From: Solibacillus sp. R5-41
GTDB taxonomy: Bacteria > Bacillota > Bacilli > Bacillales_A > Planococcaceae
Assembly (NCBI RefSeq): GCF_002736105.1
Contig: NZ_CP024123.1
Location: 3,836,001 to 3,900,000 of the forward strand
DNA length: 64,000 bases
Direction: 5' to 3'
In this document: positions 49,838-63,339 of the stretch, one piece after another
Numbering within the stretch: position 1 is the first letter of the stretch
Layout of the letters: each line of letters opens with the position of its first letter
Position numbers and translations under genes: made by a program
The notes under the pieces: generated by a model
What the model saw: only the letters and a program-made list of their open reading frames with translations
Databases searched by the model: none
What the model was told of the DNA's origin: nothing

Positions 49838-51088
49838 TTATTCAAATGTTCTCCAGCCAATATCTTGACGGAAGAAGAAGTTCGACCATTCCTTTTTGGC
49901 AAGTTCAGCATATACTTTTTCTTGCGCTGCTTTTAAATCTTTCGCTTCCGCAGCAACTAAAATGACACGGCCGCCATTTCCGACAAATTGGCCATCTACA
50001 AGCTTTGTACCTGCGTGATAAATCGGAAGTGCTGAATCGTTTAAATTAGGAAGCGTATTCCCTTTTACTACATCTCCAGGATAACCTTCAGCAGCTACGA
50101 CAACGCCTAAAATTGCTTCTTCTTTCCATTGTAGATTGAAAGGCTTTTCGTTCATTAATGCGAGCATAAATTCACCAAAATCCGATGCCATGCGTGGTAA
50201 AACGACCTGTGTTTCTGGGTCACCGAAACGCGCATTGAACTCGATTACTTTCGGACCTTTTTGAGTTAAAATTAATCCAGCATATAAAATACCTGTAAAC
50301 GATACGCCTTCAGCTTCCATTGCCTTTACTGTTGGTTCAACAATTGTGTCATAAGCTTCTTTTACAATTTCCGCTGAAATTTGTGGCACTGGTGAATAGG
50401 CACCCATACCACCTGTGTTCGGTCCTCTATCGCCGTCATAAGCACGTTTATGATCTTGTGCAATAACCATTGGATAAATTTGTCCTTTGTGAACAAATGA
50501 CATAAAGCTAAACTCTTCCCCATCAAGGAATTCTTCAACTACTACGCGAGAAGAAGAGTCACCAAAGCGTTGATTTCCAATCATATCCTCTACCGCTTCA
50601 ATTGCTTCTGCTTCGGTTATTGCTACAATTACACCTTTACCTGCTGCAAGTCCATCTGCTTTAATAACGATTGGTGCACCTTGTTCTTTAATGTACGCCA
50701 CAGCTTTATCGGCTTCAGTAAACGTTTCATGTGCTGCAGTTGGAATATTATATTTATTCATAATATCTTTGGCATACGATTTTGAGCCTTCAATTTGTGC
50801 TGCTGCTTTTGTTGGTCCAAAGATTACTAAGCCTTGCTCATTAAAGTAATCTACAATCCCTTCAGCTAATGGCTGCTCTGGACCTACGAATGTTAAAGCT
50901 ACTTCATTTCCCTTTGCAAATTCCGCTAATTTCGTGAAATCAGATGCTTCAATTGCAATGATTTCTGCATCATTCTTCATCCCATCATTGCCTGGGGCAA
51001 CAAATACTTTCTGTACTGAAGGGGCATTATTAAATTGCTTAGCGATCGCATGTTCACGACCACCACTACCGATTACAAGTATATTCAT
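49838..51088 (-). CDS. purD: Phosphoribosylamine-glycine ligase
   Basis: 416 residues, AAAGGAG upstream. ATP-grasp enzyme: VIGSGGREHAIAKQF, VIKADGLAAGKGVIVA, DRGPNTGGMGAYSPV and EFNARFGDPETQVVLPR. It makes GAR from phosphoribosylamine and glycine. It is the last pur gene, separated from purH by a 409-base spacer that holds an apparently independent RNA gene with a terminator, so purD may need readthrough or its own promoter. Confidence 0.96.
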   Translation of the reverse strand: MNILVIGSGGREHAIAKQFNNAPSVQKVFVAPGNDGMKNDAEIIAIEASDFTKLAEFAKGNEVALTFVGPEQPLAEGIVDYFNEQGLVIFGPTKAAAQIEGSKSYAKDIMNKYNIPTAAHETFTEADKAVAYIKEQGAPIVIKADGLAAGKGVIVAITEAEAIEAVEDMIGNQRFGDSSSRVVVEEFLDGEEFSFMSFVHKGQIYPMVIAQDHKRAYDGDRGPNTGGMGAYSPVPQISAEIVKEAYDTIVEPTVKAMEAEGVSFTGILYAGLILTQKGPKVIEFNARFGDPETQVVLPRMASDFGEFMLALMNEKPFNLQWKEEAILGVVVAAEGYPGDVVKGNTLPNLNDSALPIYHAGTKLVDGQFVGNGGRVILVAAEAKDLKAAQEKVYAELAKKEWSNFFFRQDIGWRTFE

Positions 51089-51106
51089 TTTTTTGCTCTC
51101 CTTTTA

Positions 51107-51137
51107 TTATCAATTACGCCTCGGCGTAATTGCGTCT
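51107..51137 (+). repeat. Intergenic palindromic repeat, partial copy 6
   Basis: ATCAATTACGCCTCGGCGTA continuing ATTGCGTC, the head palindrome of the repeat family, in the purD leader. Confidence 0.6.
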
Positions 51138-51182
51138 AATTTTTGAATTTAGTTTTAAGCACTATGTATTTTTTGTATAGTA

Positions 51183-51461
51183 GAAAAAAAAAACGCCCGC
51201 CAAAAGCAGGCGAGCGTTTTTATTAATAAAGTGGCAACAATGCTATCCGACCAGAATAGTACTGCTGCGTCCCCTATAAATAAAGGTTGTTAACAGGCAT
51301 CCCCCGACCAAAGTGGATGTTTGTTAACAATTTATTGAACGGAGGACCCGGCCAAGGTCATCCATTCGGTCTTCTTCACTATTTTTCCGGCCAGAAAGAA
51401 TAGTGAAGAAAGCATTTGCAAACGCTTCTGCTAATGCCCGGCCAGAGCATTAGTGAAACAT
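51183..51461 (-). ncRNA. Small RNA gene with five UGGYCGG-loop hairpins
   Basis: Reads leftward. Promoter TTGAAA (51497-51492) and TATAAT (51473-51468), spacer 18, begins right after the purH stop; expected start about 51461. Five hairpins follow, each with UGGCCGG or UGGUCGG in or at the edge of its loop: H1 51431-51453 (7-bp stem), H2 51372-51410 (12 bp perfect), H3 51337-51367 (11 of 12), H4 51287-51330 (9+5 bp), H5 51234-51268 (12 of 13 with G-U). It ends in terminator AAACGCCCGCC/GGCGAGCGTTT (51191-51219) with ten U. No ribosome site or frame. I match it to no RNA family I know. Function unknown: protein sponge, antisense RNA or attenuator are possible. Confidence 0.78.
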
Positions 51462-51467
51462 TATTCT

Positions 51468-51497
51468 ATTATACTATACATAGTGATGAATTTTCAA
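51468..51497 (-). promoter_or_regulatory. Sigma-A promoter of the five-hairpin RNA
   Basis: TTGAAA, 18-base spacer, TATAAT. The -35 touches the purH stop codon. A consensus -10 inside an operon argues for a separate transcript rather than a simple spacer. Confidence 0.72.
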
Positions 51498-53030
51498 TTA
51501 ATGTTTGAAATGACGAACCCCAGTAAATACCATCGCAATACCGTATTTATTCGCTGCGTCGATTGATTCTTGATCTTTAATAGAGCCACCTGGTTGGATA
51601 ATTGCTTTAATTCCTGCTTTAGCAGCAGCTTCAACTGTGTCACCCATTGGGAAGAATGCGTCCGATGCAAGTGCTGCTCCGTTTGCTTTTTCTCCCGCTT
51701 GCTCAAAGGCAATTTTCGCTGCACCAACACGGTTCATTTGACCAGCACCAACGCCTAATGTCATTTGATCGTCTGTTACTACGATTGCATTTGATTTTAC
51801 GTGCTTCACAACTGCCCAGCCAAGTTTTAATGCGTTCCACTCCGCTTCAGTTGGTTCGCGGTCTGTTACGACTTTAATTTCTGCTTCGTTAAAACCATAG
51901 CGGTCTGGCTCTTGAACAAGTAAGCCACCTTCTACCGATACCACATTGAATTGATCTTGCTTCGCTTGTGCAAAGTCAATTGTCATTAAGCGGATATTTT
52001 TCTTTTTCGTTAAAATTTCAAGTGCTTCCTCTGTGAATGAAGGTGCAATAATAATTTCTAAGAAAATTTCGCTTAATTTCATTGCTGTCGCAGCATCTAC
52101 TTCCTTATTTAGTGCGATAATGCCTCCGAAAATAGATGTTGGATCTGCTTCATATGCTTTATTGAATGCTTCTTCAATTGTTTCACCTGTACCAACACCA
52201 CATGGATTCATATGCTTTACAGCAACTGCTGCTGGCATTTTGAATTCTTTTACAATTTGTAATGCAGCATTGGCATCTTGGATGTTATTGTAAGATAATT
52301 CTTTACCATGTAATTGATTGGCATAAGCGATTGAGAAGTCAGAGCCTAGACGTTTTGCATAAAATGCTGCTTTTTGGTGTGGGTTTTCACCGTAACGTAA
52401 CGTTTGTTTCAACTCATAAGTTAATGTCATGTTTTCCGGGAATTCTTCGCCAATTGCACTTGAAAGATGATTTGAAATATACGAATCATATGCAGCTGTA
52501 TGACGGAATACTTTAGCCGCTAAACGACGACGTGTTTCTAATGTAGTTTTGTTATCTACTTTTAGCTCTTCTAAAACAGTGGCATAGTCATTTGCATCCA
52601 CGATTACAGTTACATAATCATGATTTTTTGCTGCAGAACGTAGCATTGTTGGACCACCGATATCGATGTTTTCAATCGCGTCATCCCAAGAAACATTTGG
52701 CTTAGAAATTGTTTCAACGAATGGGTAAAGATTTACACATACGATTTCGATTGGCTCGATACCATGCTCTTGCATTTGTGCTACATGGCTTGGTTCGTCA
52801 AATTTCCCTAAAAGACCACCGTGAATCATTGGGTTTAATGTTTTAACACGGCCATCTAAAATTTCTGGGAATTTTGTTACTTCATCCACTGCTGTTACTG
52901 GTACATTGTTATCGTGAAGTAATTGTTTTGTACCACCAGTTGATAATACTTCATAGCCTAGAGCTACTAATTCTTTTGCAAATTCTAAAATACCACTTTT
53001 ATCTGAAACACTAATAAGTGCGCGTTTAGT
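51498..53030 (-). CDS. purH: Bifunctional AICAR transformylase/IMP cyclohydrolase
   Basis: 510 residues from GTG at 53030, eight bases after GGAGG; the six codons further up overlap that site. N-terminal IMP cyclohydrolase domain ([28 protein letters not shown]) and C-terminal transformylase domain ([13 protein letters not shown] with the catalytic Lys-His, [25 protein letters not shown]). It carries out the last two steps to IMP. Confidence 0.96.
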
Positions 53031-53112
53031 CACGATTAGGTCCTCCAATTAATTTCAATTTCAATAATCTTTTCCGTGAGCACATCCCACACAAGAGCGG
53101 CTCAAACGAAAA

Positions 53113-63174: not shown

Positions 63175-63248
63175 CCTAAAGATGAAAGAATATGCACATA
63201 ACTTCATTCGAAGACACACCCTTTGCTAATTTTTCCAAAAGTTGCTTT

Positions 63249-63317
63249 CCCTCATAGTCCGAAATTTAAGGTTTCGGGTAGAAACGCTAGAGCCATATTA
63301 TCTAGCATATATGTGGG
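63249..63317 (-). ncRNA. Guanine-specific purine riboswitch aptamer
   Basis: Minus strand: P1 arms CCCACATA and TATGAGGG; core sequences AATATGG, GTTTCTACC, CC-TAAA and GGACTATG match the purine riboswitch consensus. The specificity position before TAT is C, as in guanine riboswitches (adenine ones have U). Guanine or hypoxanthine would favour the downstream terminator and shut off pur genes. Confidence 0.93.
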
Positions 63318-63339
63318 GTTTAATGTTTTTCCTTTAGTC

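Follow-up and report, generated by a model that had tools for sequence, protein, structure and literature searches.

A multi-hairpin RNA with a repeated UGGYCGG loop in the purine operon of Solibacillus and related genera

Introduction

RNAs that titrate a protein by means of a repeated loop are, to our knowledge, known chiefly for CsrA/RsmA in Gram-negative bacteria. The CsrB/CsrC and RsmX/Y/Z RNAs are built from several hairpins whose stems differ while a single loop motif recurs, in a variable number of sites, and they are intergenic, with their own promoter and terminator and no open reading frame. The motif recognised by CsrA is ANGGA, with the core GGA. An array of hairpins sharing these features, its promoter being predicted, lies in a 64,000-nt stretch of DNA from Solibacillus sp. 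R5-41 (hereafter the window). It differs from CsrB in its loop, which is UGGYCGG and not ANGGA, in its location within the pur operon, and in having no Rfam match. The core GGA is completed in only 48 of 128 loops, namely those with A at position +7. A gene for CsrA is present in 27 of the 28 genomes carrying a strong copy of the array (the exception, G111, is 87% complete), and since the loop is not the CsrA motif although CsrA is encoded, a protein other than CsrA is favoured as partner. On these comparisons, we read the array as CsrB-like in its logic but not as a member of the CsrB RNAs.

Three further groups of RNAs invite comparison. Like the leaders controlled by PyrR or TRAP and the riboswitch leaders, the array is a structured RNA ahead of a biosynthetic gene, with an intrinsic terminator and a possible alternative pairing; unlike them, it has repeated identical loops and a predicted promoter inside the operon, and no known aptamer or PyrR site was found in it at gathering score. 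The ToxI RNAs of type III toxin-antitoxin systems resemble it in that a terminator and then a gene come after their tandem units, whereas the units of the array share the loop only and the following gene is purD. Finally, GOLLD, ROOL and OLE RNAs are homo-oligomers, as reported in one study (PMC12286853). The array resembles them as a bacterial structured RNA whose role is unclear and in which kissing loops are possible, but it is far smaller and is without an Rfam match at gathering score.

The Rfam 15 search of the 64 kb window at gathering score returned a purine riboswitch (63235-63334) as its sole match. Within 51050-51550, at E values up to 5, there were 31 matches, all below gathering, the best with 28 bits against 54. 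A reading of the window made from the sequence alone (hereafter the sequence-only reading) had likewise matched the array to no RNA family. No paper on the RNA was found among those listed in a literature search with little coverage of subscription journals, so that absence from print is not proven, and it is not mentioned in the available passages of two RNA-discovery papers (PMC11109978, PMC8632094).

Location, promoter and terminator

The array occupies positions 51184-51497 of the - strand, in the spacer between purH (51498-53048, -) and purD (49838-51088, -). The operon has the order purE-K-B-C-S-Q-L-F-M-N-H-[RNA]-D, the gene names being assigned by reading the translations, and is located 3' of the purine riboswitch. 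The riboswitch aptamer (63235-63334, -) scores 79.4 bits and lies 5' of purE, and the operon is therefore riboswitch-led. purH is the upstream and purD the downstream neighbour in 28/28 strong copies, and every copy is on the same strand as both genes.

A sigma-A-type promoter is predicted at 51468..51497 (-), comprising TTGAAA, an 18-nt spacer and TATAAT with 11/12 matches to the consensus; the -35 element can alternatively be read as TGAAAA with 17-nt spacing. The promoter proposed in the sequence-only reading thus holds for the window, but its TTGAAA is not general among the 28 copies. Instead, the constant element is TATAATARAATA, found 5' of hairpin 1 in 28/28 copies, and the terminator is followed by a T-run of 6-10 in all 28, both counts being made with patterns that demand these elements (for the T-run, at least 6 T). 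At 23 nt before TATAATARAATA a T is present in 28/28 copies, and at 21 nt before it a G in 26/28. The predicted transcript (51184..51462, -) is ~270-279 nt long, with a start placed ~7 nt after TATAAT and an end in the T-run; across the 28 copies the predicted length is 206-291 nt. The intrinsic terminator (51184..51221, -), described as strong before, combines a 13-bp stem (51221-51189) with ten T at 51193-51184, some of which are used by the last stem pairs, and its 5' arm AAACGCTCGC is nearly invariant.

The longest reading frame has 24-86 codons, depending on the copy, and neither its start nor its frame is the same throughout the 28 copies. A small open reading frame as the product of the array was rejected on this inconsistency, which leaves no sign of a conserved peptide. 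The absence of a reading frame claimed for the array thus extends to the comparison, as no conserved open reading frame was found among the 28 copies. These comparisons support the array as a noncoding RNA with its own, predicted, promoter and terminator, from which its transcription is deduced.

Hairpins and fold

Five hairpins follow one another on the - strand of the window. Hairpin 1 (51421..51462) presents the loop TGGCCGG at 51438-51444, and its 3' arm AGCGTTT is complementary to the 5' arm of the terminator. Its 3' arm was also compared with the cre consensus, and a cre site was rejected because the likeness is too poor. Hairpins 2 (51371..51411) and 3 (51337..51367) carry the same loop at 51387-51393 and 51348-51354, respectively. 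The loop of hairpin 4 (51287..51330) is TGGTCGG at 51304-51310, inside the longer conserved context ATCNACTTTGGYCGGGRGAT, and that of hairpin 5 (51219..51284) is TGGTCGG at 51247-51253, with the outermost pairs abutting the terminator stem. The five stem-loops and the heptamers given in the sequence-only reading were borne out.

The minimum free energy of the 284-nt stretch is -110.5 kcal/mol, with a z of -8.07, and 0/200 shuffles were as good. In 20 aligned copies, 92.0% of the cells are paired under the named structure against 40-57% when the partners are slid, a control on which the structure is favoured, as it came from the tested alignment itself. Two-sided changes occur at 36/82 pairs in the same copies versus 16.0 +/- 2.7 in shuffles, and the RNAalifold energy is -124.6 versus -60.8 +/- 7.4 in 20 column shuffles. 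Stems at one position are homologous between species and covary, while stems differ between positions. Hence, the earlier description of the stems as unrelated is true of a comparison between positions and fails for one position followed through the species.

The conserved loop

The heptamer TGGYCGG occurs five times on the two strands of the window, all in the array, on one strand and within 198 nt, where 5.3 would be expected by chance over the whole 64 kb. The 20 aligned copies were picked by DNA similarity and not by motif, and with hairpins read by homologous columns over five positions, the exact heptamer is present in 94 of 98 hairpins, L019 being without hairpins 2 and 3. The four inexact loops all belong to hairpin 2 and read TGGCTGG (twice), AGGCCGG and CTGCCGG. 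Among the 28 copies, 18 have five exact heptamers, eight have four and two have three, for a total of 128. The five exact loops put forward earlier are accordingly a feature of these 18 copies, the window's included, and are not general. Four of the ten copies with fewer than five have a changed hairpin 2 loop (L005, L006, L007 and L017), and the other six, by reading, have hairpins absent.

Position 4 of the heptamer is C or U in 98/98 hairpins, and the last two letters are GG in 98/98. The pairing partners of this final GG switch between U and C, the base facing G being mostly U. Among the 128 exact loops, 84 have C and 44 have U at position 4, whereas at position +7 there is a G in 80 and an A in 48. 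On the 5' side, 109 have U at position -2, and position -1 is T in 78, C in 49 and A in one. By prediction, each of the first five letters is unpaired with a mean probability of 0.91-0.92, and the last two with 0.12 and 0.06. Because the final GG is fixed in every hairpin though its partners switch and A-U would pair, the last two G appear to be read as sequence in spite of being predicted as paired. The heptamer is kept while the stems vary with compensation, which supports the view that the loop is under constraint, as the sequence-only reading had proposed in arguing for selection on the loop. One loop repeated on different stems is, in turn, suggestive of a multivalent site.

Distribution and evolutionary history

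In a DNA search of 61 genomes, the 15 other members of the genus and G029 all showed long matches, and G030, G032 and G033, which represent three further genera, showed part matches. A covariance model built from these 20 copies, the window's included, was then used on 261 genomes of the family; at the level of the order, the set searched was identical. At E 0.01, 56 genomes are reached, of which 28 score at least 126 bits and 28 at most 31.6 bits. The window's genus accounts for 16 of the strong carriers (16/16 of its genomes) and four other genera for the remaining 12, with one strong match per genome in 28/28. Many of the weak matches cover the terminator positions 263-296 alone, and the two weak-match loci that were read from these 28 genomes, L067 and L068, are plain terminators without the heptamer. 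A covariance search of family genomes and an Rfam comparison had been proposed with the sequence-only reading, which named lack of covariation and a match to a known family as outcomes against it; the two-sided changes and the Rfam result both came out in its favour.

At the level of the class, 396 of 398 sampled genomes were without a match at E 1e-5 under stricter filters, and the two with a match were G000 and the carrier G032. Named genomes, scanned by pattern, yielded 13 records, 11 of which have 3-5 heptamers and purD in the locus. These belong to Solibacillus, Caryophanon, Metasolibacillus, Lysinibacillus odysseyi, 'Bacillus ndiopicus' and a Lysinibacillus MAG, and purH is found in 10/11, L069 being cut. 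The remaining two are alphaproteobacterial; they contain one heptamer each, have neither purH nor purD, and were taken as chance. No copy of the array was found in viral contigs (two patterns), phages or plasmids, and an origin as a mobile element or phage RNA was set aside in view of this and of the single strong match per genome.

In 19 non-carrier loci that were read, no heptamer is located between purH and purD, and the gap ranges from direct contact to several hundred bases. Some of these spacers show, by eye, a single terminator-like hairpin, e.g., L083-L086 and L091. Of two near genera, g14 and g11, 12 loci were read, two of them repeated. In g14 (L150-L155 and L082), 7/7 genomes read have a different single hairpin, GACCGRGRTG...CATCTCGGTC, in the purH-purD spacer, with no clear T-run. 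In g11, the array-less loci L083 and L156 still have the terminator AAACGCTCG ahead of purD, as might be seen after loss of the array alone. On a PurD tree (43 of 47 rows) the carriers need three changes, where the shuffled mean is 12.6; the starred branches force at least two changes, several forks being weak and long branches meeting. One gain followed by two losses fits this pattern. As relatives placed among the carriers are without the array, it is dispensable. We read the array as a lineage-specific RNA that is new.

Function of the array

The array is conserved and folded, its loop is constant and its promoter and terminator sequences are conserved; the loop as a binding site, the partner as a protein and titration as the outcome are what we infer. 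The array RNA would arise both from its own promoter and from transcription continuing out of purH, and would end at the intrinsic terminator before purD. The 3-5 hairpins may be interchangeable holders of one apical heptamer, UGGYCGG, each loop binding one copy or subunit of a common conserved partner, most likely an RNA-binding protein. In this way, the RNA could titrate or assemble its partner in step with transcription of the purine operon. The presence of three to five exact heptamers per copy is as expected of additive sites. We assign a probability of roughly 0.4 to this reading, a dedicated noncoding RNA whose loops form a multivalent protein site that titrates or assembles a partner. 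Against titration, the place between purH and purD is constant in 28/28 copies, which a role in trans does not require, relatives placed among the carriers do without the array, and the mRNAs that titration would set free are not visible outside the array in a single-hairpin search.

For this search, the model was built from 29 distinct hairpins of the 128, each with at least 9 of 11 standard pairs, a selection that biases its pair counts. Run on 16 genomes, it returned 46 rows, of which 29 fall in the array; the 17 others (E 0.03-3.7) were all read. One match, in a gene that reads as a permease, recurs in G000, G009 and G033, i.e., in three of the 12 carriers searched. The sites are located at L037 ~1505 (-), L174 ~1042 (-) and L171 ~1029 (+), where the hairpin UUYUGGYCGGA falls at codon 40-41 and encodes FWPEIK, FWSEIK and FWSDIK, respectively; the P/S codons CCG/TCG differ at the heptamer's Y alone. 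Since the tryptophan and its neighbours are conserved in the protein and nine other carriers are without the match, the hairpin is probably due to the coding of a conserved FW[PS][ED]IK-type peptide, a second binding site being less likely. The model also matched engB, in antisense orientation, in G000 and in the non-carrier G263, again over a conserved peptide. The protein sponge suggested in the sequence-only reading therefore gains no target here, as the one candidate titration hairpin that recurs among carriers is explained by protein sequence.

With the same model and stricter filters, 398 class genomes gave 30 rows, four of them in the window's own array, and in 19 further class loci that were read no second heptamer was found within 400 nt, two being without any GGYCGG. 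The pattern YTYTGGYCGGR occurs 13 times in the window's genome, with four in the array, seven in or antisense to long frames and two intergenic. The two intergenic sites show CTTTGGTCGGG in a loop: a terminator-like hairpin beside a CotZ-like gene, by reading, at L032 1480-1520 (738 kb), and an intergenic hairpin without an Rfam match at L043 1480-1540 (4082 kb).

Alternatively, the array could act in cis, as the 5' part of the purD transcript. AGCGUU of hairpin 1 and AACGCU of the terminator would then form an antiterminator, and a loop-bound partner would choose between it and the terminator. The array is located directly upstream of purD, on the same strand and with the terminator between, in 28/28 copies. 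The distance from the T-run to the start of purD is 30-34 nt in 10 copies, 42 nt in one and 65-265 nt in 17. In the 11 close copies, purD would hardly have space for a promoter of its own, and read-through is the probable route to it. The AGCGTT/AACGCT complementarity is present in 28/28 copies, 27 of them exact and L007 with a G-U pair. With the 3' arm of the terminator not yet made, the antiterminator has a predicted P of at least 0.8 in 20/28 copies, but in the other 8/28 the nascent P is 0.10-0.79, and for the full RNA it exceeds 0.101 in none of the 28. By our estimate, a match of 6-7 nt in ~260 nt has a chance probability of roughly 0.06-0.3, and the pairing is without covariation, both arms being nearly invariant, so that the complementarity is a hint only. 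Furthermore, L083 and L156 keep the AAACGCTCG terminator without the array, and the constancy of the terminator thus does not need hairpin 1; the number of hairpins also varies. We place a cis leader or attenuator second to titration, as the less likely function of the array, and it is not exclusive of titration. The brake on purD suggested in the sequence-only reading gained some support from the short distances and the complementarity, whereas the low probability of the antiterminator in the full RNA speaks against it.

Pairing with other RNAs is a less probable use of the loops, which could bind RNAs carrying CCGRCCA and so serve as an antisense regulator or a sponge for small RNAs. A G-rich loop of 7 nt is seed-like, and the Y at position 4 fits a target G by C-G or U-G. 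In L168, CCGRCCA is located just 5' of a plausible ribosome-binding site, in G002 alone, and in the engB mRNA of G000 (L038 ~1505) there is, close to the start, CCGACCAGAA, fully complementary to the loop of hairpin 5. The engB site is also present in the array-less G263 (L113 ~1513), however, and encodes a conserved RPEQ. In the window's genome, CCGRCCA gave 0 hits at 3-25 nt 3' of GGAGG and 0 hits at 0-25 nt 5' of it. G002, G010 and G029 gave nine hits: three far inside long frames, two on the opposite strand of a single gene, three in short, unresolved frames, and L168. An antisense RNA acting on ribosome-binding sites found no support, as conserved complementary sites were not found in the four genomes searched with the exact 7-mer near GGAGG, and the sponge for CCGRCCA RNAs proposed in the sequence-only reading is unsupported at these sites. 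The 3' end of tRNA-Pro is CCGACCA, and the T-box motif is UGGN. The former fits just 44/128 loops, those with U; the C in 84/128 would mismatch A73, and mimicry of either the tRNA-Pro 3' end or the T-box UGGN was therefore rejected.

It could also be speculated that the RNA associates with itself, although we regard this as quite improbable. The self-complementary GGYC (GGCC, or GGUC with G-U) would form kissing loops within or between RNAs and build a multimer. Position 4 is restricted to C or U in all 98 hairpins, both of which keep the self-complementarity, and in two RNAalifold predictions loop 3 was joined to loop 4 or 5. Yet, no other palindrome occurs among the 98 hairpins, the outer U and GG are nearly or fully fixed, the changed loop of L017 (CTGCCGG) breaks the palindrome, and the predicted pentaloop is tight for four kissing pairs. 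Finally, a chance or neutral repeat in the spacer, to which the restriction of the array to one lineage and the other single hairpins in the spacers of several relatives might point, is hardly credible against a z of -8, the RNAalifold energy relative to shuffles, the covariation in 20 copies and the 28 carrier genomes.

Perspectives

Returning to the multivalent protein site, the array may represent a new class of multivalent RNA in Bacillota that titrates or assembles a UGGYCGG-binding protein, is coupled to purine synthesis and possibly gates purD, a tentative view that may well prove wrong. Action in cis would make the array RNA a multi-hairpin switch of a new kind, set before the gene that closes the purine operon. 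As a conserved array in Bacillota with a loop different from that of CsrA-titrating RNAs, it would hint at an as yet undescribed RNA-binding protein whose motif can be read, and the loop itself would be the bait for finding it.
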